From the NCBI GenBank assembly GCA_025617745.1, contig CM046863.1, forward strand, positions 57,363,829-57,427,828: a stretch of 64,000 nt of DNA, written 5' to 3'. Below, one piece after another: positions 1,069 through 37,740 of this stretch. The stretch's first letter is position 1, and each line of letters starts with the position of its first letter. The stretch is from Heliocidaris erythrogramma (Eukaryota > Echinodermata > Echinoidea > Camarodonta > Echinometridae). The notes under the pieces are model-generated. The model saw nothing but the letters and a program-made list of their open reading frames with translations, made no database searches and was not told where the DNA came from. A program made the position numbers and the translations under genes.

Positions 1069-4000
1069 TCATATTCTGCTCATAAAATCTGCTGCAGTGT
1101 TATCCTGCCCCTTCACTGATACAAGCCTAAACCTGTAATCTTGGAGCATCATGCTCCATCGCATGATTCTCTTGTTCTCAAACTTCTTCCCTTGAATGTA
1201 GACCAATGGTTTGTGGTCTGTGTGCACTTCAAACTCACGTCCATACAAATAGTAGTCGAACTTCTTGATCGCCCATACTATTGCTAAGCACTCTTTCTCT
1301 ATTGTCGAGTAATTCTCTTCCCTTGGTAACAGCTTTTTACTAGCATAAGCGATTGGGAATTCTTCCCCTGAATGCTCCTGCATAAGCACAGCACCCACAC
1401 CCCTGTCAGATGCGTCTACCTTCAATACAAACAACTGATCAAAACAAGGGAGATGAAGGATTGGACGAGTAACTAGACATTCCTTCAACTTTCTGAACGA
1501 CCTTTCCTCATCTTCTCCCCACTTTACCTCGTTTGGTTTACCTTTAAGCGTTAAGTCTGTCAAAGGCAGTGCGATCTCAGCATAGTTAGGGATGTAGTCC
1601 CTATAGTAACCTGTAAGACCTAAGAACGATCGCACCTGCTTCTTGGTTTTTGGCCTAGATGACTCAATGACTTTCTTAGTCAGTCTACTACTAGTTTGGA
1701 TAGTACCATCTCTAAGACTATGTCCTAAAAACTCGATCGTGTTGAATCCCAAAGCGCATTTGGTAGGACGTGCAGCTAAGTTAACCTCGCGCAATCTTTG
1801 CAACACCTTTCTGAGCGTCTCTACATGCTCTTCCCAACTCTGTGTATGAATGAGAACATCATCGATATAATGAACTACGTTGGGAATACCCTGTAACACA
1901 TTACGCATCATCTTGGTAAACTGTGCACCTGCCGTAACCAAACCAAATGGCATGTATCTAAACCTATACTGCCCACTTGGAGTTAGAAATGCAGTTTTGT
2001 TTTTGTCACTGTCTCGCATAGGGATCTGCCAGTATCCCTTTGTCATATCTAGTTTACTGAAGAACTTGCTTTGTGACAATGTAGCAAACAAATCCTTAGG
2101 GTCTGGTATTGGTTCTGGATTGAACACAGTGATATTATTCAAACGGCGGAAATCTATACAGAATCTATTAGAACCATCTGGCTTCTTCACCATTACTATC
2201 GGATGTCCATAAGGGGAATCTGCCGGTTCAATAATTCCCATCCGCAACATTGTATCTATTTCCTTTTCTACAGTTTCTTTCATTGCCTGTGGAATCTTGT
2301 ATGGAGGTGAACGTACTGGTTCATCACTCGTCAAATACAATTTGCATTCTGCAGCAGTCGTCTTCTTCGGCACATCAGAAAAGACATCCTGATACTCTCC
2401 CAATAACTGAGATATCTCTTTCTTACGAATCTCCTCCAAGGACTCATTCACCTTGACATGTTCTACAAATTCCTTCTGATGCATGGATGGCATCACTGTG
2501 ACGTCGGCGCCATCGACATCACTAATCTCAACCTCGATATCTCCCTCACACACTTTCTTACTCTCTGAACACAAATCAAAGCAGCCTGTCATAGACAAGT
2601 TAACCTCCTCCCTGGGGAAATATTTCTTGAGAAGATTAATGTGATATGTCTTAGGAACACCATCTACATCTACAATGTAGTCATAGTCATACTTTGCACC
2701 AACAACAGGGAAAGGACCCATCCATTTCAGCAACAACTTGTTCTGATCCGTTGGAAGCAAAATCAACACCTGATCTCCGATATTCAACTTCCTGTTCCTA
2801 GCATTTCTGTCATAATACTTCTTGTATTTTCCCGCAGCACATTTTAAGGCTTCCTGGGCTAATTCCCACGACTTCACCAACCTCTCACGAAGCTCTATGA
2901 CATACTCGTACTCATCTTTCAATTCTGGAGTTACATCATCATTCGTCCACAATTCCCTTAACACATCCATGGGACCACGAACATTTCTCCCATACAACAG
3001 CTCAAAAGGAGAATATCCAAGACTAGAGCTTGGAGTCTCGCGCAATGCAAAGAGAAGTGCAGGCAAATACCTGTCCCACTCGCGTGGTTCATCCGCGCAC
3101 AACCGTCGCAGCGCAGTTTTCACCAACCCATTGTACCTCTCTACTAACCCATTACAAATAGGATGATACCTAGAGCTAGTGACCTGTTGAATAGACAACA
3201 GTCTCGACACTTCCCGCATTAAACTTGAAACAAACTGTGGTCCCAAGTCTGACATGACTTCATTTGGTATTCCTACCCTGCTATACACACTGAGAAGTGC
3301 TTCGGCCACTTCCACAGTTGTTATTGTCTTCAAAGGTATGGCTTCTACATACCTGGTTGCATAATCTACAACCGTCAGTATATGCGTATGACTTCTAGCT
3401 GACCTAGTGAATGGTCCTGCTAAATCTATAGCTATTCTCTGAAAGGGTACACCTATGATCGGCATTCGACCTAATGTTGCCTTTGACACTCTACCCTTAC
3501 TGACCGTCTTCTGACAGATGTCGCAGGATCGACAAAAGTTTGCTACATCCACCGACATTCCTGGCCAGAAAAACTGACTTTTGATTTTGGCCATTGTATT
3601 GTTTATGCCTATATGACCTCCCATCAAGGACTCATGTGCCACTTTCATGACTTTCTCTCTTTGTGACCTAGGGAGAACTACGCACTTATGTCCAACACCA
3701 AGCTTAGGATTGTTTCCATCTCTTCTCTGCCTGTACAAATACTGTCCCTCTGACACAAACATGTACTTAGACTTTTCATCCCTACCTACTTTGTTCCATA
3801 GTGAACGCAAGGTCGGATCTTCCTTCTGTTCGCGAACAAAATCAGCAGGCTCTACACAGGAAATGGGACTCCCAGTTTTCAAACCCTTGAGCGGTTTGAC
3901 CTTTACCTCCTTTTGAGATCGAGTTTCAACTGCCATCACCTGTGGACTACCCTCTTTCACACCAGAGATACTTGCAACAACCTGCTCAACTCCATCAACA

Positions 4001-5736
4001 ACATGCACATCAATGGCCTCCTTGTCATCACCAATGTCATTCTCACCATCACTATCCACCTGGTCTGCATCATCGATTTCATCATTAACATGCACATCAA
4101 TGACTTCCTTGTCATCACCAATGGCATTCTCACCAACACTTTCTATTTTACCTCCTTTAGGCACCCATTTCAAATCTGGATTACTGGGCTCACGTGCACC
4201 AGTTATATTGCCAATAACGAGATCACACAGTGAATGAGGCATACACAAAGCCTCTATCTCACCCACGTAGTATGGAGAATCAACTGTCAGCTTTGCAACT
4301 AAGAACTCCCTTATTGTACCATCAATGAGCAACACTAACTGCTTGAAACCTGTCAGCTGATCTTCATCGACCAATTCTGATTTAACTACACAAGTAGTGC
4401 ACCCGGAATCTCTCAAAACTGACACCGCTTTGCTTCCTTTTACCAGTCTACCTGAAACTATGGGCATATGTTTCATCATAGCCCCCAACAGATCATAAGC
4501 CATGCCTAACTTATTCACTATGCTTTGTCTTGCCTGTTCTAATGAATTCAATCCATTTGTTTCTACCTGTAGTAAACAAATACCAGCCAGTCCAAGTTGC
4601 ACTGAATGAACAGTAGGTGAATTATCATTGGACCTCAATGAACCAATACTATATCCCGTGTCCTTACCATCATTTGCAACTAACCTAGTAGTGATATCAC
4701 CCTCTTCTCTTTGGGTGGGTAAATCTGTCCCATCTACAGTTATTATTCCTTGCACTGAATGCATCTGCTTTCGCAATGGACATTCCTTCTTAAAATGCCC
4801 CTGGCTGCCACATGTATAACAACCTCTAACAGAACGCTTGCCTGCATCATGCGCCCTTCCACCTACACTACTCGGTGTACGCGAATCAGGACCCTTAGCG
4901 CTAAAGTTACCCTTGGGGACACCTGGCCGAGTGGAACTAACACCACCTTGTGTACTTGTAGCTGTAGGTTTGAATCCACTTGGTTTACGCGGTGTACAAA
5001 AAGTATGTAACCCATGAGCCCCTACATAAACCATAGCCCTATCAACAACCTTTTCAATGCTACTACATTGCCCCTCTCTAACAAACACTTCAATTCCCTT
5101 TGGGCAACAATACACAAATTGTTCTCTTAGAATCAAATCCAAAAGGGATTCATAGTCTTCATCAATATCTGATAATTCAATCCACTTCTGTAAGTAGCCT
5201 TTTAATCTAACACTGAATTGTCTAGGCTGTTCATGCTTTTCTGGCTTAGCTGTACGGAATTTTCTCCTATAACCATCAGCAGTTAAATGATAGAACTCCA
5301 TCAGCTCCCGCTTTACTGCCTCATAATCATTGCGATCTTCACTTGACATTCTATTCACAACCTCTAAAGCCTGTCCTGTCAGATTAGAAATAAGATGTAA
5401 GGCTCTTACGCTGTGAGGTACCTTCTGACTATCCATGAGTAATTCAAATTTGGTAACGTATGCATCAAATTTATCATTTGAGTCATCAAACTTCCCAACT
5501 TTCAACTTCAATCCGCCAGTATCTACACTGCCGGTCTTTCTCTCCTCGACCCGAAGCTGAGCTAGCTTCACTTCTTTTTCGCGCTCTTCGCGATCGCGCT
5601 GGCTTTCTAGTTCTAACTCTTTTGCCCTTAACACCTCAGCACAGCGCTCAGAAACAAACTTGTTAAGCTCACTGCCCGCCAAGTTCATCTCTCGACCTAG
5701 GGCTGAAAATTCTTTTATCTGATCTAAACTGGCCAT
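1069..5736 (-). CDS. Gag-pol polyprotein, PR-INT-RT-RNaseH order (1,555 aa)
   Basis: This polyprotein encodes the capsid and enzymes for reverse transcription and integration of the element's RNA. Residues 1-300 are Gag, with a charged coiled-coil-like stretch at 35-66. A CCHC zinc knuckle lies at C306/C309/H314/C319. The aspartic protease motif DSG is at 443-445. An acidic linker (about 534-582) holds a duplicated IGDDKE.IDVHV block. Integrase follows: HHCC zinc finger H701/H708/C738/C741, catalytic D771, D830 and E866 (D-x35-E), and a GPF-type domain near 985-1040. RT comes next with D1230 and YIDD at 1290-1293, then RNase H with D1441, E1482, D1507 and D1550, ending the protein. All catalytic residues are present and the frame is unbroken. 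Gag and Pol share one frame, so their ratio is not set by frameshifting. The start is the first in-frame ATG before the Gag-like region. Confidence 0.95.
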   Translation of the reverse strand: MASLDQIKEFSALGREMNLAGSELNKFVSERCAEVLRAKELELESQRDREEREKEVKLAQLRVEERKTGSVDTGGLKLKVGKFDDSNDKFDAYVTKFELLMDSQKVPHSVRALHLISNLTGQALEVVNRMSSEDRNDYEAVKRELMEFYHLTADGYRRKFRTAKPEKHEQPRQFSVRLKGYLQKWIELSDIDEDYESLLDLILREQFVYCCPKGIEVFVREGQCSSIEKVVDRAMVYVGAHGLHTFCTPRKPSGFKPTATSTQGGVSSTRPGVPKGNFSAKGPDSRTPSSVGGRAHDAGKRSVRGCYTCGSQGHFKKECPLRKQMHSVQGIITVDGTDLPTQREEGDITTRLVANDGKDTGYSIGSLRSNDNSPTVHSVQLGLAGICLLQVETNGLNSLEQARQSIVNKLGMAYDLLGAMMKHMPIVSGRLVKGSKAVSVLRDSGCTTCVVKSELVDEDQLTGFKQLVLLIDGTIREFLVAKLTVDSPYYVGEIEALCMPHSLCDLVIGNITGAREPSNPDLKWVPKGGKIESVGENAIGDDKEVIDVHVNDEIDDADQVDSDGENDIGDDKEAIDVHVVDGVEQVVASISGVKEGSPQVMAVETRSQKEVKVKPLKGLKTGSPISCVEPADFVREQKEDPTLRSLWNKVGRDEKSKYMFVSEGQYLYRQRRDGNNPKLGVGHKCVVLPRSQREKVMKVAHESLMGGHIGINNTMAKIKSQFFWPGMSVDVANFCRSCDICQKTVSKGRVSKATLGRMPIIGVPFQRIAIDLAGPFTRSARSHTHILTVVDYATRYVEAIPLKTITTVEVAEALLSVYSRVGIPNEVMSDLGPQFVSSLMREVSRLLSIQQVTSSRYHPICNGLVERYNGLVKTALRRLCADEPREWDRYLPALLFALRETPSSSLGYSPFELLYGRNVRGPMDVLRELWTNDDVTPELKDEYEYVIELRERLVKSWELAQEALKCAAGKYKKYYDRNARNRKLNIGDQVLILLPTDQNKLLLKWMGPFPVVGAKYDYDYIVDVDGVPKTYHINLLKKYFPREEVNLSMTGCFDLCSESKKVCEGDIEVEISDVDGADVTVMPSMHQKEFVEHVKVNESLEEIRKKEISQLLGEYQDVFSDVPKKTTAAECKLYLTSDEPVRSPPYKIPQAMKETVEKEIDTMLRMGIIEPADSPYGHPIVMVKKPDGSNRFCIDFRRLNNITVFNPEPIPDPKDLFATLSQSKFFSKLDMTKGYWQIPMRDSDKNKTAFLTPSGQYRFRYMPFGLVTAGAQFTKMMRNVLQGIPNVVHYIDDVLIHTQSWEEHVETLRKVLQRLREVNLAARPTKCALGFNTIEFLGHSLRDGTIQTSSRLTKKVIESSRPKTKKQVRSFLGLTGYYRDYIPNYAEIALPLTDLTLKGKPNEVKWGEDEERSFRKLKECLVTRPILHLPCFDQLFVLKVDASDRGVGAVLMQEHSGEEFPIAYASKKLLPREENYSTIEKECLAIVWAIKKFDYYLYGREFEVHTDHKPLVYIQGKKFENKRIMRWSMMLQDYRFRLVSVKGQDNTAADFMSRI

Positions 5737-6422
5737 TGTGAAATATTATGATCCGTGTTCTAAATCAATATAGACCCTATCACAAAACAATCTAGTGCTG
5801 GGTATAGATTACAGTTTACACTAACTTTATGTTAATGAGCCACTTAATATTCTACTTGCACTAACAAGTTTAGAATAATCCCTGTAGAATCTATTCTAAC
5901 CAACTATTGTCTTATCAAGACTCTTGTTGTATCTGTCTAGTTTATAATTTTATATCCCAAGACAAAACAAACTCATGGGAATTTCTACCCACCACTTGTC
6001 TTTATAAACCTAGACATGCAATACCAAAACTAGTCTCAAAGTAAGTATGCTTGCATACAACGTGGATTAACTCACACAGCTAAATCCAATACCATGTCCA
6101 ATTCCGGCGAAAAACCCATTACAGCCCTCGTACAAAAACCTGTAGTACACACCGCTGTAATTCACAATGCCAACGGACATCCCATGCACGTAACACGCAT
6201 ACCTGAAACCTGAATAGCATTCTACACAGAACCCCGCATACCGATCCCTGTACAATACGGTACACGCACTACTGAAACCGTGGCGAGAGACCTACCACAC
6301 CGAACCGCAAAATCACTCTTTTTGCAAACATCCGTCTCTCTTTCAACCTAAAACATACACACATGGTAGCATTGAGATAAAAACTACAAATTGTGGTATT
6401 TCATACAAGACCTAAAACTTTC

Positions 6423-10690: not shown

Positions 10691-11016
10691 TATTCATTAG
10701 TCTTAACAAGACGAGTAGGCCCTATGCAATAGTTATTCTGTCACTGACTGGTTTTTTTTTTAAGGTAAAAGGCTCGTATCACTACACTGATAGGACTTAT
10801 AAATGTAGTTCCAAACATCCATGATGAGATGTATCTAAATGTTACTGGTACATACATGTACGGGTTCCTGTTTTGAAGATGAATTTATTCAAAGGTCAAA
10901 ATTTGAGATAAATCTACTGATGAATCAATATTTCTTCTTCTTTTTTATTTGAATTGTTTTGAATATTTTTCTTTATAATTCATGTGCTACATTTCCCCAA
11001 TTCTTATTTATTCCAG
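10691..11016 (+). other. Intron upstream of the first LRR-like exon
   Basis: The sequence is AT-rich and ends with a pyrimidine tract and AG at 11015-11016. The 40-nt partner exon found before the other three copies is not recognisable here. Confidence 0.5.
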
Positions 11017-11504
11017 GACAATGGTCAACTCTTTATAAGGAAATGCGAGCTATCTAATGAGATGACCATGAGGTTGTGGTCCTGCCTTAGATCTCTCACT
11101 CCAATGACCCAAGTCATTATCTCAGACTCCTCTCTCAGTTTCCCTCCATCTCCTCCTGAGCTTCCATCCGTCACAAAGCTGATAGCCAAGAGAGTGACGG
11201 CACAAAGCTACGAAGGTCTGTTCTCTTCTTTACCTGGCGTGGGAGAGATCGATATCACTATCGATGATGTAGGGAAAGCAGACGTATCTCAGATCCAGAC
11301 TGGTCTTCGTCGACGTCTGACGGGACAGGAGCTCACGCGCATCAGGCTTACAGCACCCGATACACGAGAGACGATGAGGGACATGGGTCTTCTGATCGGG
11401 GACAAGGTGATATTGTCAGGGGTAGTATCCGGACCGGAGGAGAAATTAATTGGTCTTGTCGAGCCTTTGACACGTTTGATATCATCTAGTTTGTATAGAG
11501 AACA
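11017..11504 (+). CDS. LRR-like exon, copy 1 (488 nt)
   Basis: This is one internal exon of a probable leucine-rich-repeat receptor or NLR-type gene. The splice acceptor is ..TTATTCCAG and the donor is the consensus GTAAGT at 11505. The frame is open throughout (162 codons plus 2 nt). Repeating LxxLxIxDSSL-type strand and turn phrases (IISDSSLSF, EIDITIDDV) suggest leucine-rich repeats. Compared with copies 2 and 3 it lacks 18 nt (six codons, in frame) in the middle. The 2-nt overhang CA is completed to a Gln codon by a G at the start of a downstream 40-nt exon. An ATG upstream of the acceptor is intronic, so no start is claimed. The NLR assignment rests on general resemblance; no NACHT, TIR or death domain is in the window. 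Confidence 0.7.
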
Positions 11505-11924
11505 GTAAGTAATAACTACTTTTTTTTCAAAGCTCATTTTATTACTTCCATTTTCAAATAACCTCTTTACAAATAATCAAGGTCAAATAAGATAGACATC
11601 TATAAATCCACATGCCAGAAATAATATTATGCAAACTTATATGATTACATTTATTGAAACAAATTAACTATTGACAATGAGTCAAACATAACATTGTATA
11701 AGCCCTGTCATGCGCATGGTATTATTGAGTGGAAGTTTATATTTAAAGCATTTAAAAGAGTGAACAAAAAAAAAAAGAAGAAAAGGAAAATCGATTCAAA
11801 ATTTCTCGCATCAATCGCGGGTTTCCCCTATTATCAGCACGCCTTTGTGTGTGTTCTTGTTCATGTTTATAAGCCATGCATTTGAAATGAAATTGGCATC
11901 ATAATTACTTTTTTGGTCACAAGT
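11505..11924 (+). other. Intron sequence of duplicated exon unit
   Basis: This matches the sequence after copy 2 (29715-30270), including the TTGATTCAAT/TTTCTCGCATC block, so the intron was duplicated with the exon. Nothing is coding. Confidence 0.6.
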
Positions 11925-21589: not shown

Positions 21590-22020
21590 GTCGTTTTTCC
21601 GAAGGTTCGTATTTCCGAAGGTTCGTTTTTCCGAAGGTTCATAATTCCGAAGGTTCGTTATTCCGAAGGTTCGTTACTCCGAAGGTTCGTTTTTCCGAAG
21701 GTTCGTTTTTCCGAAGGTTCTTTTTTCCGAAAATGAAATAGGGTTCATAATTCCGAAGGTTCGTATTTCCGAAAATGAAATGAGGTTCGTATTTCCGAAA
21801 ATGAAATAGGGTTCGTATTTCCGAAAATGAAAAAGGGTTCGTATTTCCGAAAATGAAAAAGGGTTCGTATTTCCGAAAATGAAAAAGGGTTCGTATTTCC
21901 GAAAATGAAAAAGGGTTCGTATTTCCGAAAATAAAATAGGGTTCGTATTTCCGAAAATGAAAAAGGGTTCGTATTTCCGAAAATGAAAAAGGGTTCGTAT
22001 TTCCGAAAATGAAAAAAGGT
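21590..22020. repeat. Left arm array of GGTTCGTATTTCCGAA units
   Basis: The outer half repeats a 16-bp unit (GGTTCGTATTTCCGAA) about nine times. The inner half repeats a 26-bp unit, the same 16 bases plus AATGAAAAAG, about ten times. Because 26 is not a multiple of three, the array cycles through all frames and yields spurious open frames with a 26-residue period. Confidence 0.95.
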
Positions 22021-22179
22021 TGTAAATTCAGAGAATACGGCGTCAATCCGTATTTCGGATAGGGAAGAGGGGAAAGACGGCCAAGTGTAAAGATATAAAG
22101 GTACTCAATAATCATAACAATGATGATAACAATTATAATAAAATCCAGAGAAATAGCCATTATATTATCGTAAATCCTA

Positions 22180-25267: not shown

Positions 25268-25769
25268 TAAACACTTATTCGATTTTTCTAATCTCGTCCT
25301 CTTATTTTCATTTCTTTTCTCTTCTCCTCTGCTCTTTTATAAACCTTCCCAATTTTGTGTCTCCATTTCATTTTTTTATTCATTGCGGGGGTGGGGGAGG
25401 TGCTTTTCGTCGAAAAGAGATCCGCTTTTTGAAGATGGCAATTAAAACCATAATATCCTATCGTTCCCCTCAATTTTCCCTTTAACAGTGGCGTAGCTAG
25501 AGTTTAGCCATTGTGGGAGCACTGGCACCATTGGAGGCACAAGTCTTTTGGAATAATCTTAAAGCTAATCTAAGACACCGCTGGTGGAAGAGGGTTGGGG
25601 GGGGGGGTTGCCGGAAGGGGTCCAACCGTCTTCTTTCCTATTCCATTTTCTTTCTTTTTTTCTTATTTTTTCGCCATCCGACGAGGGAGGGGTGGGGGCG
25701 TGCCCTCCCCCTCCCCCCCCCCCCCCCCGTTGCTACACCTCTGCTCCTGATGAATTCGCCTTTTTTACC

Positions 25770-26325
25770 TGGAATTATGAACCCTATTTCATTTTTCGGA
25801 AATACGAACCCTATTTCATTTTCGGAAATACGAACCTTATTTCATTTTCGGAAATACGAACCCTATTTCATTTTCGGAAATACGAACCTTATTTCATTTT
25901 CGGAAATACGAACCCTATTTCATTTTCGGAAATACGAACCCTTTTTCATTTTCGGAAATACGAACCTTATTTTATTTTCGGAAATACGAACCCTTTTTCA
26001 TTTTCGGAAATACGAACCCTTTTTCATTTTCGGAAATACGAACCTTCGGAATTATGAACCCTTTTTCATTTTCGGAAATACGAACCTTCGGAAATATGAA
26101 CCCTATTTCATTTTCGGAATTATGAACCTTCGGATAAACGAACCTTCGGATAAACGAACCTTCGGAATAACGAACCTTCGGAGTAATGCAACAAATGTTC
26201 GGAATTACGAACCCTTTTTCATTTTCGGAATTATGAACCCCCAGGCATGGGAAATTAGTGTTTCGGAAATACGAACCTTCGGAAATACGAACCTTCGGAA
26301 AAACGAACCTTCGGAAAAACGAGAT
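25770..26325. repeat. Right arm array of inverted GGTTCGTATTTCCGAA units
   Basis: Mirror image of 21590-22020: about fourteen 26-bp units inside, then 16-bp units towards the outer end. The symmetry of unit order between arms argues for arm-to-arm copying or a palindromic origin. Confidence 0.95.
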
Positions 26326-26339
26326 GCCCCCATTTTACC

Positions 26340-28723: not shown

Positions 28724-29208
28724 GTAAGTAGACTGGTAGGCCTCATTGTTTAGAAATGTTCAACAAAAACAATTTACATGTACACCGTTTCGCCTCATAG
28801 AAAATACAGCAAAAATAAATGATATTTCTTCCTTATTTACTTCATGTCGTACTACAATAAAATATTGTTTTATTTTTGTAGAAGATTGTAAATGGCCAAG
28901 AAGTTAATAAAAATAATTGGTTTCTTGTAATGAAACTATTTATTGGAACAGAAGTCGAGCAAAATCACATCTTATTTCATGCCATTTCTTGTCAGCTTGT
29001 TTACACTTTGTTTCTCCAAACCACGGATATACTGCGATTTAGTTCTTTTATATATCCTTCTTCTTGTCATTAAGATTCATCAGAAGAACCCGAAACTCGT
29101 AAACCGTATGTTTTGTCCATGATAGTGAGAGGAAGAAATTGTATGCAACTCCCTAAATTGAATATGATGCAAAATTGACGCATTCATTTTCCTTGTATTC
29201 TATTACAG

Positions 29209-29714
29209 ATCCCTATGTTAACAATTAAGGACTGCCATCTATCTGCTGAGATGACCAACAGGTTGTGGTCCTGCCTCAGATCCGTCGCTTCTCTAAAACA
29301 TCTCTCCATCTCAGACTCCTCTCTCAATTACCCTCCATCTCCTCCTGAGCTTCCATCCGTCACAAAGCTGACAGCCGAGAGAGTGACGTCACAAAGCTAC
29401 GAAGGTCTGTTCTCTTCTTTACCTGGCGTGCGAGAGATCGATATCACTATCGATGATGTAGGGAAAAAAGGCATATCTCAGATCCAGACTGGTCTTCGTC
29501 GACGTCTGACGGGACAGGAGCTCACGCGCATCAGGCTTAAAGCACCCGATACACTCCGGTCAGAGAAGAAGAATTTAGAGACGATGAGAGGACTGGGTCT
29601 TCTGATTGGGGACGAGGTGATATTGTCAGGGGTAGTATCCGGACCGGAGGAGAAATTAATTGGTCTCATCGAGCCTTTGACACGTTTGATATCATCTACT
29701 CTGTATATAGAACA
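29209..29714 (+). CDS. LRR-like exon, copy 2 (506 nt)
   Basis: The acceptor is TATTACAG and the donor GTAAGC. There are 168 codons plus 2 nt. It starts I-P-M and continues with LTIKDCHLS, then repeated hydrophobic strand phrases (HLSISDSSL, EIDITIDDV) and a C-terminal SGVVSGPEEK segment. It is very close to copy 3 in nucleotide sequence. The 2-nt end CA plus the G opening the next 40-nt exon makes Gln, so cassettes can be spliced in series without frame change. The likely role is part of a leucine-rich sensor region; this is an inference. Confidence 0.75.
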
Positions 29715-29987
29715 GTAAGCAATGACTCCTTTTTTTCAAAAAATATTTTATTACTTCCATTTTCAAAAATAACATCTTTAAAAATCAAGGTAAATCTGGT
29801 AAAAAAAAGGATAGACATCTATACCCATATGCCAGAAATATACTATGCAACCTTATCTGATTACATTTATTGATACAATTAAATTAACTATTAACAATGA
29901 GATAAACGTAACATTTTATAAGCACTATCACGCGCATGGTTTTATTGAATAGAAGATTATATTTCAAACATCTTTTTAAAAGAGTGA

Positions 29988-31026: not shown

Positions 31027-31520
31027 GTAAGTAGACTGGTAGGCCTCATTAAATGTTCAACAAAAGGAATTTATACATTCTGCTTCATAGAAAATACACC
31101 AAAATAAATGATATTTCTTCCTTATTTATTGCATTGTGCAAATGGCCTATTTCGTACTATAATAAAATAATATTCTAAACACTTTTATTTTTGTAGAAAA
31201 TTTAAATGGCCAAGATGTTAATAAAAACATATATATTTTTTTAAATGAAACTATTTATTGGAACAGAAGTCGAGCAAAATCACATCTTATTTCATGTCAT
31301 TTCTTGTCAGCTTGTTTACACTTTGTTTCTCCAAACCACGGACATACTGCGATTTAGTTCTTTTAAATATCCTTCTCGTCATTAAGATTCATCAGAAGAA
31401 CCCGAAACTCGTAAAGCGTATGTTTTGTCCATGATAGTGAGAGGAAGAAATTGTATGCAACTCCCTAAATTGAATATGATGCAAAATTGACGCATTCATT
31501 TTCCTTTTCTTCTATTACAG

Positions 31521-32026
31521 ATCCCTATGTTAACAATTGAGGACTGCCATCTATCTGCTGAGATGATCATCAGGTTGTGGTCCTGCCTCAGATCCGTCGC
31601 TTCTCTAAAACATCTCTCCATCTCGGACTCCTCTCTCAATTACCCTCCATCTCCTCCTGAGCTTCCATCCGTCACAAAGCTGATAGCTGAGAGAGTGACG
31701 TCACAAAGCTACGAAGGTCTGTTCTCTTCTTTACCTGGCGTGCGAGAGATCGATATCACTATCGATGATGTAGGGAAAGAAGACATATCTCAGATCCAGA
31801 CTGGTCTTCGTCGACGTCTGACGGGACAGGAACTCACGCGCATCAGGCTTAAAGTACCCGATACACTCCGGTCAGAGAAGAAGAATGTAGAGACGATGAG
31901 AGGACTTGGTCTTCTGATCGGAGACGAGGTGGTATTGTCAGGGGTAGTATCCGGACCGGAGGAGAAATTAATTGATCTCGTGGAGCCTTCGACACGTTTG
32001 ATATCATCTAGTTTATATAAGGAACA
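31521..32026 (+). CDS. LRR-like exon, copy 3 (506 nt)
   Basis: The acceptor is TATTACAG and the donor GTAAGT. It has the same length and phase as copy 2. Differences from copy 2 are mostly single substitutions that keep the frame (for example KDCHLS to EDCHLS). The surrounding intron sequence is also highly similar, so the duplication is recent. Confidence 0.75.
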
Positions 32027-32440
32027 GTAAGTAATTACTACATCTTTTGTTTTAAGATTCTTCTAATTACTTCCATTTTCAAAATAACATTTTTACAAAT
32101 AATCAAGTTAAGATAGCATATCATATATGCAAGCTTATATAATTACATTTATTGGTACAATGATTATCAAACCAACTAATATGAGTCAAACATTTTATAA
32201 GCACGATCATGCACGTGGTATTATTATTGAAATAAAATTTACATTTAAAACATCTTTCTAAAATAATGAACAAAGAAAACAGAATGTAGAAGAAAAGGAA
32301 AATCTAGTAAAAATCTATTGCGGGTTTCCTTTTTATTAGCATGCCTTTGTGTGTCCTGGTTCATGTATTTTTAATCCATACATTTGACATGAAATGGGCT
32401 AGTTAATATGTTGACTTTTAATTACCAAAATATCCACCTG

Positions 32441-33967: not shown

Positions 33968-34365
33968 CTGAAATCCATAAACTTTGAAGAGTTACAGAAA
34001 ATATCACAAGAAGAGTAGGCTACTATAAAAACAATCGCAAAAAAAATGAACAATTTTGGAGAAAGTAAGTCTAACTCTAAGAGATTATTCTGTTCAAGTT
34101 TTTAATAGAAGAAATGAGCTTACATTTTCATTGGCATTATATTTACAAAGTCAAAGCAATGGGCATGATATGCAGTCGTGAAATAGGTATCGTTTTTCAT
34201 ACACTTTGTGTCAGAAAACTTGGTCATGTAAATGCTCATTAATTGCATGCTTGTCCATTACAATCACCCTCCATACCATCTCCATCCAAACCACCTGTTC
34301 ATTGTACATTTCATCCCATTGTCATGTTCCATCCATACACTCAATGTTCAGTCAATGTTCTATGT

Positions 34366-36429
34366 GGTCAATTCCAGCGTAACGGACATGACATTCAGAC
34401 AGTTTTTTGTAATTCAAAACATCACACAATAGAATTGGCAGTCTCCAAACAATTTTTATTGAGTTTATCAGACACATTTGACTATCAGGGATATACTCAT
34501 GAAATTCCACATCATTTTATTGAACGGTTGTGGAGAAAATGCACTCGTGAGCGTAACGGACATGACACAAAATGGACAAGGCTTTTTAACCTACTTTTTA
34601 TTATGAAAATTCCTGTGAGTTTTGGGATAGAATGAACCTGGTTTGGGTATTAATTAAAACTTAAAGTCATGCTGTAATCATAAATTCATGTTTGAGATTA
34701 GTTTTACATTGCATTCTTTTTTTATAGCTCAAAATGTAGCGTAACGGACATGACGCATTGAGCGTAACGGACATGACAGTTTTGTCCACTTTTTGTGAGC
34801 GGACATATTTGTTTTATTACGAGATATGGCAGATATTTTAATGTTCATATAGTAAGGTTGAAAGATAGGGACACACATCATAACTGGTATTCTGTACTAT
34901 CTCATATATTTCTGTAATTTTAGAAGGGTTGGTTTTTCAATGTTTACACAAGATATAAAAAATAAAGCAAACTTGCTTCTGCACCAGCTAGCTACAATTT
35001 ATGATACATTTTAGTTAATACTACCCTCCATACCAAAACAGAACAAATTATTAGTTGATGCTATGGTGTTTTCTCCTTTATAGGCTAATATTTCTCAGAT
35101 AGTATTAATATGCTAGCGTAACGGACATGACACCCTTGTGAAGAGAACCATATCTTCACTTCTTTCTTTCAAAAAAACATTTGGCATAAAAAAGACAAAA
35201 CTAACAGCTCAGTACTACTACCAAATGTTAAATAGTAACACATCTAAGTTCTTTTTTGCAGGTTTTAGTGATCTAACAACTATACTACAATGCATGGAAT
35301 ATAATGCTTAGAGTACCACAACAACATACAACAAAGTAGAGCACGTCTCAAGCTTTGAGGCAAAGAAAACTTAATGAACCAGACCTGATCAAAAGTTTGA
35401 ACATATCATGAAAATGTCTTGAATGATTCACATCAGTTTTAAAGAAAGAAAGTTAACTACATGTATCTGCAACATGCACTAAAGCAGTTCCACAAAACCA
35501 GTGTCATTATGAAATGAGGTCTAAGTTATCATGGAAAAGTGCTAGGGAGATGGCCAATAGTGGAACTGCATTGTCTTGGCTTCAGTAATCCACTATGTAA
35601 ATAAACAGGGACATACCTGCTGCTGCATGTTGGTCATCAATCATGATCAAGATGTTGGAATGGGATTACATAACAGGGCTAGCAAGATCATCTGAAATCT
35701 ACAGACTTCCATGGGTAAACTGGAAAATCTGCTTGTTGTTGTGTCTTAAATATAACAAGCAGATTTATATTTATGAGTCACTAGTATCTAGAAACATCCC
35801 ACTATCCTCAAGCAATTGAAAATAATAATCAATCTATTAAATGGAGCCCACAATGTGGTTTCTGCCACTTGTCGTATATAAAGTGTCATGTCCGTTACGC
35901 CATTTGCTTGAAAACTGACAGTGGTAAGGAAAAATGGTTGCTACACATGTAAGGGGATTTAGTTCTAACGTAGAAACTGAATTTACAGTAACCAAATACA
36001 AATTTCCTGTTGGCTATGAAAACTTTAAGTGAAAAACGTAACGGACATGACACTTCTAATGATAAAGAAATCACACAATTTTGAGGATCAATGCCTCGAA
36101 AATTGATGAATGATATAAACATTCATTGTGATTTTCTGTTGATATGTACACTGAACTGTTTAAAAGTTGAAGGAGACCTCCAGTAGATTTTAGGCCTTCA
36201 TTAGAGACAGGAAGAATAAACTCTTCAAAAATAGCCACATTTTTGTGTTATTGCGATACATCATATTAGATTTTCACTGGTGGAAAAAAATACGAAAATT
36301 TGTCAGTTTAATGATTTGTCTATTGGAAAATTAACATTTATACATTACTTTTCAAGAATATTTGAGAGTTTAAGTGCAATTGCAAACTTCATTTTTTTAC
36401 TAAAGTGAACATTTTTCATGGAATTGCCC
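34366..36429. mobile_element. 2.06-kb element with seven dispersed GCGTAACGGACATGACA motifs
   Basis: The left end is GGTCAATTCCA and the right end, inverted, is GGGCAATTCCA. ATGT flanks both sides (34362-34365, 36430-36433). The 17-mer occurs at 34377, 34551, 34739 (ends GACG), 34761, 35116, 36037 (lacks the first G) on + and at 35884-35900 on minus. Spacing is irregular (23 to 769 bases) and the sequence between copies is ordinary AT-rich DNA, so this is not a tandem repeat. No open frame of note. It sits in an intron of the duplicated gene. Confidence 0.7.
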
Positions 36430-36755
36430 ATGTATACACCCAATGTACATTGTATTCAAGTTATACACACTACGTGTCATGCTCATTGTCAAACACATTG
36501 CATAATGCTATCACTCTCTCACATACATACACACTACCCTGCATCTCTCTCGTGACTTTGACTTTGAGTTTGATATACTATGGGAGTATTTTAATTCATA
36601 TGCTTTACTAATAAGTTTTATGTTCTTCTTCTTCTCTTTTCTTTTTCTTCGTGATTCTTATTATAATTGTTACCATCCGTACTATCACTCTAGAAGTTGA
36701 AATATTTTATTACCGGCTGTCTTGTTTTTCTTCATCTTTCTCCTAAATGCTATAG

Positions 36756-36795: not shown

Positions 36796-37218
36796 GTAAG
36801 TAGGCCTGATAGGCCTCATTGTTTAGAAATGTTCAACAAAAGCAATTTATACATTCCGCCTTATGAAAGTTACAGCAAAATAAATTATATTTCTTCCTTA
36901 TTTATTGCATTGTGCAAATGGCCTAATTCATACTACAATTAAATGGCAATTTCCAAAAGACGTCAGTAAAAGAATTGTGAATGGCTATTAAAGTTACCCC
37001 TCCCCCCCCCCAAAAAAAAAAAATTAAATAAATAAATAAAATGAAATAAATAAAACAATAAAATTCATACAAAATGACTTTAAAAAATAATACGATCTAG
37101 TAGTTGTAAAGCGTATGTTTTGTCCATGATCGATAGTGAAAGCAAGAGATTGTATGTAACTCCCTAGATTGCATATGATGTAAAATTGACGCATTCATTT
37201 TATTGTATTTCGTTACAG

Positions 37219-37736
37219 ATCCGTATGTTAACGATTAGGGACTGCCATCTATCTGCTGAGATGACCACCAGGTTGTGGCCCTGCCTCAGATCCTTCACCT
37301 CACTGTCCAAGCTTACTATCTCAGACTCCTCTCTCAGTTTCTCTCCATCTCCTCCTGAGCTTCCATCCATCACAGAGCTGATAGCTGAGAGAGTGACGTC
37401 ACAAAGCTACGAAGGTCTGCTCTCATCGATACCTGGCTTGAAAGAGATCGATATCACTATCGATGATGCAGAGAGAGACATACCTCAGATCACGGCTGGT
37501 CTTCGTCTGACCGGGGGACAGCAGCTCACAGACATCTGCCTTATAGCACCGGACTCACTCCCATCAGAGAAGAAGAATGTATCGAGAGAGACGATGAGAG
37601 GACTGGGTCTTCTGATCAGAGAACAAACCAACAACCTACAGTGGCTGCGTGTGTACGGGGTGGAGTGCACAGACGAGGAAGACTTGGTTTACCTCGTCGA
37701 GTGCTGCAGACATGTGAAGACGATGAAATACGTATG
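37219..37736 (+). CDS. LRR-like exon, copy 4 (518 nt), diverged 3' end
   Basis: The acceptor is CGTTACAG and the donor GTAAGTT. It opens like copies 2 and 3 (I-R-M-LTIRDCHLS) but its last third differs: after RGLGLLI it reads EQTNNLQWLRVYGVEC and LVYLVECCRHVKTMKYV, with regular leucine spacing, instead of the SGPEEK ending. Length is 172 codons plus 2 nt, so phase is unchanged. This version may be closer to the ancestral LRR, or the ends may have been exchanged by gene conversion. Confidence 0.75.
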
Positions 37737-37740
37737 GTAA

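Follow-up and report, generated by a model that had tools for sequence, protein, structure and literature searches.

The element and its family

The window, by which we mean the whole 64-kb stretch of Heliocidaris erythrogramma DNA that was analysed, holds a non-autonomous DNA transposon of 2064 bp at 34366..36429 on the plus strand, identified as a copy of a 2.09-kb family by its ends, its target duplication and its 98.4% identity to the family consensus (2090 columns). The left terminal inverted repeat (TIR), GGTCAATTCCA, spans 11 bp at 34366..34376 on the plus strand, and its 11-bp partner at 36419..36429 reads GGGCAATTCCA on the minus strand (TGGAATTGCCC on the plus strand). The same four bases, ATGT, lie immediately outside both ends, at 34362..34365 and 36430..36433. 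The short terminal repeats and ATGT duplication described in a sequence-only reading of this DNA are therefore present as claimed.

We searched the genome (1.06 Gb in 26 contigs) for further members. A 27-base left-end pattern, in which the 17-mer described below adjoins the terminal repeat, was found at 229 places, and a central 34-base marker at 235 places with up to three mismatches; from these counts we put the size of the young family at about 230 copies. Eight of the 229 left-end matches begin GGG, and those that were fetched are old relatives. Twenty loci were fetched, including the window copy, and 19 yielded an element, the aligned pieces of which are 96.5 to 99.8% identical to the consensus, indicating that the family is young. 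Both ends were present at 18 of the 20 loci, and in 17 of these 18 copies, that of the window included, the element is flanked by identical 4-bp AT-rich sequences; the exception, L020, has ATGT on one side and ATAT on the other. In the 17 duplications the first base is A in 15, the second T in 12, the third A in 10 and the fourth T in 12. The 11-bp TIR, the 4-bp duplication, the ~230 dispersed copies and a longest consensus open reading frame (ORF) of 90 aa are the features of a non-autonomous TIR transposon. One copy, L037 (G000:C1:77821300-77825300), has CCAG instead of GCCC as the last four bases of its right end, with CCAGATAT on both sides, perhaps the trace of an aborted excision or of short-homology repair. 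A search for an exact empty site gave adjacent paralogous units without the element, in which the junction was too diverged. We know of no published description of this family, the literature having been searched by the 17-mer word only; four spellings of it led to a single listed paper, on insect odorant receptors.

The window contains other features. An intact Gypsy-type ORF of 1558 aa lies at 1069-5745 on the minus strand, with a SCAN-domain match and with integrase domains placed before the reverse transcriptase and RNase H; this integrase-first order is unusual and is known from Gmr1-type elements. Four related open stretches of ~180 aa on the plus strand (10963-11508, 29179-29718, 31491-32030 and 37168-37740), in a partly duplicated array, match the first of them at 72-88% over 300 nt. 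They resemble the exons of a gene present in repeats, and a Pfam scan of all four returned no significant match. Two arrays, with units of 16 and 26 bp that resemble each other, lie on opposite strands at 21591-22095 and 25741-26338, ~4 kb apart.

A 17-mer repeated within the element

What had drawn attention to the element was a near-invariant 17-mer on both strands, and this description held. Allowing up to three mismatches, the whole window contains seven matches, all within 34366-36429, five of them exact and two with a single mismatch, six on the plus strand and one on the minus; shuffled sequence gave a mean of 0.10 matches and a maximum of 2, and none of 100 shuffles reached seven. The first copy (34377..34393, exact, plus strand) adjoins the left terminal repeat at consensus position 12, and the second (34551..34567, exact, plus strand) corresponds to consensus position 189. 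The third and fourth (34739..34755 and 34762..34778, both plus strand) form a 23-bp tandem pair, of which the second member is exact and the first differs in its last base, a G shared with the consensus. An exact plus-strand copy follows at 35116..35132. The only minus-strand copy, exact and at 35884..35900, is single here versus two in the consensus, and the last, at 36036..36052 on the plus strand, carries as its one mismatch a first-base A that is also found in the consensus.

The consensus itself has eight copies, on the plus strand at 12, 189, 377, 400, 754 and 1695 and on the minus strand at 1522 and 1543. All eight share a 15-bp core, CGTAACGGACATGAC, without a single difference, and agreement in the neighbouring columns falls to 2-6 of 7-8. 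There are two tandem pairs, with steps of 23 and 21 bp; the flanks of the remaining copies are unrelated, and beyond extensions of the motif and one short hairpin no 11-base word recurs in the consensus. Such sharp edges are what a protein-binding site would leave. A coding repeat, already discounted from the sequence alone, was rejected because the copies fall in different frames and the consensus has no ORF longer than 90 aa. Nor, for the window element, is the 17-mer part of a longer decayed satellite, the condition named in the sequence-only reading as one that would refute it: outside the two tandem pairs, the sequences flanking the eight consensus copies are unrelated, and a longer tandem unit was seen only in the array of one relative (L079, below).

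Counting the 17-mer across the genome, as had been suggested, gave 1445 exact matches (737 + 708) versus none for the reversed control. Among the first 100 exact places listed, 99 lie within 18 element copies and the remaining one lies in L027, a decayed relative whose end is GGGCAATTCCG with one mismatch, so that among the matches listed the word almost never occurs outside these elements. In other sequence collections it occurred in one viral contig and, once each, in 10 prokaryote stretches, which is not above the expectation from collection size.

Old relatives, unequal ends and the search for a partner

A search with a combined end-plus-motif pattern gave 18 further loci, of which 17 are old relatives and one (L053) is a young member with an insert. 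The old relatives are mostly short, and where the match extends for at least 120 bp their left ends are 68-76% identical to the young consensus. The word stands at base 12 in all 17, as the search pattern required. A second word, with up to four mismatches, occurs 110-190 bp further in, at base 122-202, in 10 of the 17; the other seven have no second site up to base 230. When left ends are aligned, similarity drops past the second site (mean 0.66 over the next 18 columns), and some pairs of relatives stay similar beyond it. Two short relatives, L045 (134 bp) and L046 (421 bp), carry the word in both arms. Four others within C2:22.65-23.35 Mb (L040, L041, L051 and L052) have a common left flank and therefore go back to a single insertion that was copied when the DNA around it was duplicated. 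Another C2 relative, with an ATGT duplication, has a degenerate pair of motifs (at 950 and 973) and a foldback repeat of 588 bp nested inside it. L079, of 1004 bp, has ATGA as its target duplication, and its left ~420 bp match the young consensus; its first 17-mer copy is damaged.

The right end is built differently. In the young element the two ends have only the 11-bp tip in common, and the right-end module of the window copy (36402..36429, minus strand) consists of the terminal repeat and a different inner sequence that lacks the 17-mer and aligns with the right ends of relatives. Near its tip the right end has no 17-mer. An old right-end pattern matched 17 places in the genome, and 12 were fetched; over ~120 bases these 12 arms can be aligned with the L079 arm, and they align less closely with the arm of the young consensus; the inner module in old members is CAGAAAATGTTCACTT. 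Further in from the right end, the word is present in five of the 12; in the other seven it is absent, at up to two mismatches, within the roughly 0.8-1.6 kb examined. Right-end palindromes at L082, L084 and L091 look like parts of another repeat and, with shared flanks included in them, were not counted as independent right-right elements.

We asked whether the motif is better preserved than its surroundings. Among young copies there was no signal of constraint (7 of 2499 motif cells differ, versus 157 of 36952 elsewhere; p=0.34), and in an alignment of 12 left ends, 11 of them old and one that of the young consensus, the columns of site 2 average 0.86 identity versus 0.90 before them, which is no excess. 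Between the young consensus and a consensus of nine old rows from eight elements (L051 and L052 having the same left flank), both cores are identical at 30/30 positions versus 117/168 for the rest (p=7e-5). The fair test is that of site 2 alone, because site 1 belonged to the search pattern; here 15/15 positions are identical versus the same 117/168 (p=0.013). Of 15 old rows, five (L040, L042, L043, L047 and L056) have no site 2 in that position; L049, with 13/15 at site 2, was excluded for a large gap. We consider the support for constraint on the motif to be real but modest, because young copies show none, old rows show no excess and some old rows are without site 2.

The sequence-only reading had proposed looking for a DNA-binding protein in longer family members; the longer copies examined gave none, and the loci examined yielded neither an autonomous partner nor a family-linked transposase. 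The search covered the inserts of L020, L021, L022 and L025, together with L040-L057, L075, L076-L078 and L079, and 13 slices, among the 100 left ends listed, in which the exact central marker was absent or too far off. Eight of these 13 match the consensus normally over most of their length or over the part examined, L062 and L070 match partway, and L065, L066 and L067 have no consensus match. ORFs of at least 130 aa were sought in all 72 loci from L020 to L091, and nine, besides a LINE-like one, were scanned against Pfam. The matches were to reverse transcriptase (L040, and weakly L041), GIY-YIG (L041) and, just below the cut-off, tyrosine recombinase (L067). A young copy at G000:C6:21170600-21191100 (L071, L065, L073 and L074) carries an ~18-kb insert that starts CACTCTTAAAATG, that is, with CAC, and adjoins a short target repeat (consensus 183-186). 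Its 863-aa ORF (L073:1497-4085, plus strand) has a weak Transposase_21 match below the cut-off (E=0.041), and the insert looks like an EnSpm-type element. As partner candidates all four kinds of ORF were rejected and taken to belong to nested, unrelated elements. A search with the old left end gave at least 50 matches, including ten convergent pairs of 285-421 bp (40 of 427 candidates scored); these are short foldback elements, and the convergent-pair search for a partner yielded nothing else.

What the repeated word may be for

We favour, at a probability of about 0.78, the interpretation that this is a recently amplified non-autonomous cut-and-paste transposon in which the 17-mer is a putative site for a transposase supplied in trans or for a TNPA-like partner. 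A transposase made elsewhere would cut and join the tips of the element; the 17-mer beside the left tip would be the recognition site for that transposase or for a partner protein from an autonomous relative, and the inner copies may serve, subterminally and internally, to strengthen binding or to bring the ends together. Binding itself, the identity of the protein, the role of the inner copies and the superfamily are all points that we infer from sequence. Among the uses first suggested (transposase, host factor or silencing), transposase or partner sites fit best, because the word adjoins the left 11-bp repeat in young and old members, occurs in both arms of L045 and L046, has a second site at which the young and old consensus do not differ, and in the places listed is hardly seen outside these elements. 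The transposase proposal is partly supported. Against it count the lack of a constraint signal among young copies and in the aligned left ends, the seven old relatives with no second site up to base 230, the right tip and the seven fetched old right ends without the word, the damaged first copy of L079, and the search for a transposase or other DNA-binding protein, which gave none in the copies and loci examined.

The asymmetry of the ends admits another account, which we think improbable: a lineage outside the named superfamilies whose ends are unequal by design, sharing the 11-bp tip, with the left 17-bp module reused up to eight times and an unrelated right module (CAGAAAATGTTCACTT in old members). 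In that account each end would be marked by a different DNA-binding protein or domain supplied in trans, and mobility would be gated by inner copies that coat the element. Equally unlikely, in our estimate, is that the element recruited the site of a host transcription factor, chromatin protein or replication protein. Copies far from the ends (consensus 754, 1522 and 1543) and a right end with none near its tip would suit such a site, and the TAACGG part of the 17-mer may resemble a Myb-type site; against it, the word is nearly confined to one element family in the places listed and, whether the member is young or old, keeps a constant position next to the terminal repeat. We give still less credence to functionless minisatellite remnants, in which a short tandem unit would have expanded and then been dispersed by rearrangement. 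Tandem growth does occur, in the pairs with 23- and 21-bp steps, in L079 (L079:4407-4641), where 10.5 tandem units of 23 bp have grown out of the motif pair, and in a triple 21-bp repeat at C12:7342052, but single copies are sharp-edged with unrelated flanks, and places 1 and 2 predate the young family, with site 2 identical at 15/15. That the copies seed small-RNA silencing is very improbable, repetition itself being all that speaks for a use that would need no fixed core beside the terminal repeat.

Returning to a cut-and-paste transposon with transposase or partner sites, we compared the element with known systems. Helitrons have neither a target duplication nor a TIR and were rejected, as the element has both. 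The target duplication of piggyBac is TTAA, and with none of 17 duplications TTAA, piggyBac and Kolobok were rejected; the termini differ as well. The likeness to piggyBat lies in unequal ends and multiple sites, here putative; piggyBat has several transposase sites on one end, and an extra site can restrain activity (PMC11707139). Ginger, with TG...CA termini (PMC10741241), was rejected on the element's GG...CC termini. En/Spm (CACTA) likewise combines a short TIR, unequal ends and many copies of one subterminal word (TNPA sites; PMC2613891); it was rejected because the element starts GGTC and not CACTA and has a 4-bp rather than a 3-bp duplication, and here the word also lies mid-element. 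Galileo, of the P superfamily, has several sites for the THAP DNA-binding domain of its transposase, some far from the end (PMC3688188), as some of the putative sites here are, but its TIRs are long. Our best guess for the superfamily is Sola2, at roughly even odds. Sola2 elements have short TIRs and 4-bp AT-rich duplications (AWWT; ATAT, AAAT, ATTT reported; PMC3627910), and Sola TIRs measure 11-1124 bp (PMC10741241); the 11-bp TIR and the AWWT-like duplication fit, with AGGT, AAAG and others deviating from strict AWWT. The likeness is in duplication and TIR length; the assignment is tentative, because the loci examined yielded no transposase.

The principle of a repeated word is known from other transposons, and this family is a new example of it. 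Its ~230 young copies, the members that differ in how many sites they have (seven in the window copy, the tandem array of L079, the triple repeat at C12:7342052) and the old short relatives that keep left-end sites only lend themselves to study of the role of subterminal sites: site number can be compared with copy success without constructing anything, and the 17-mer is a marker for hunting the autonomous partner.
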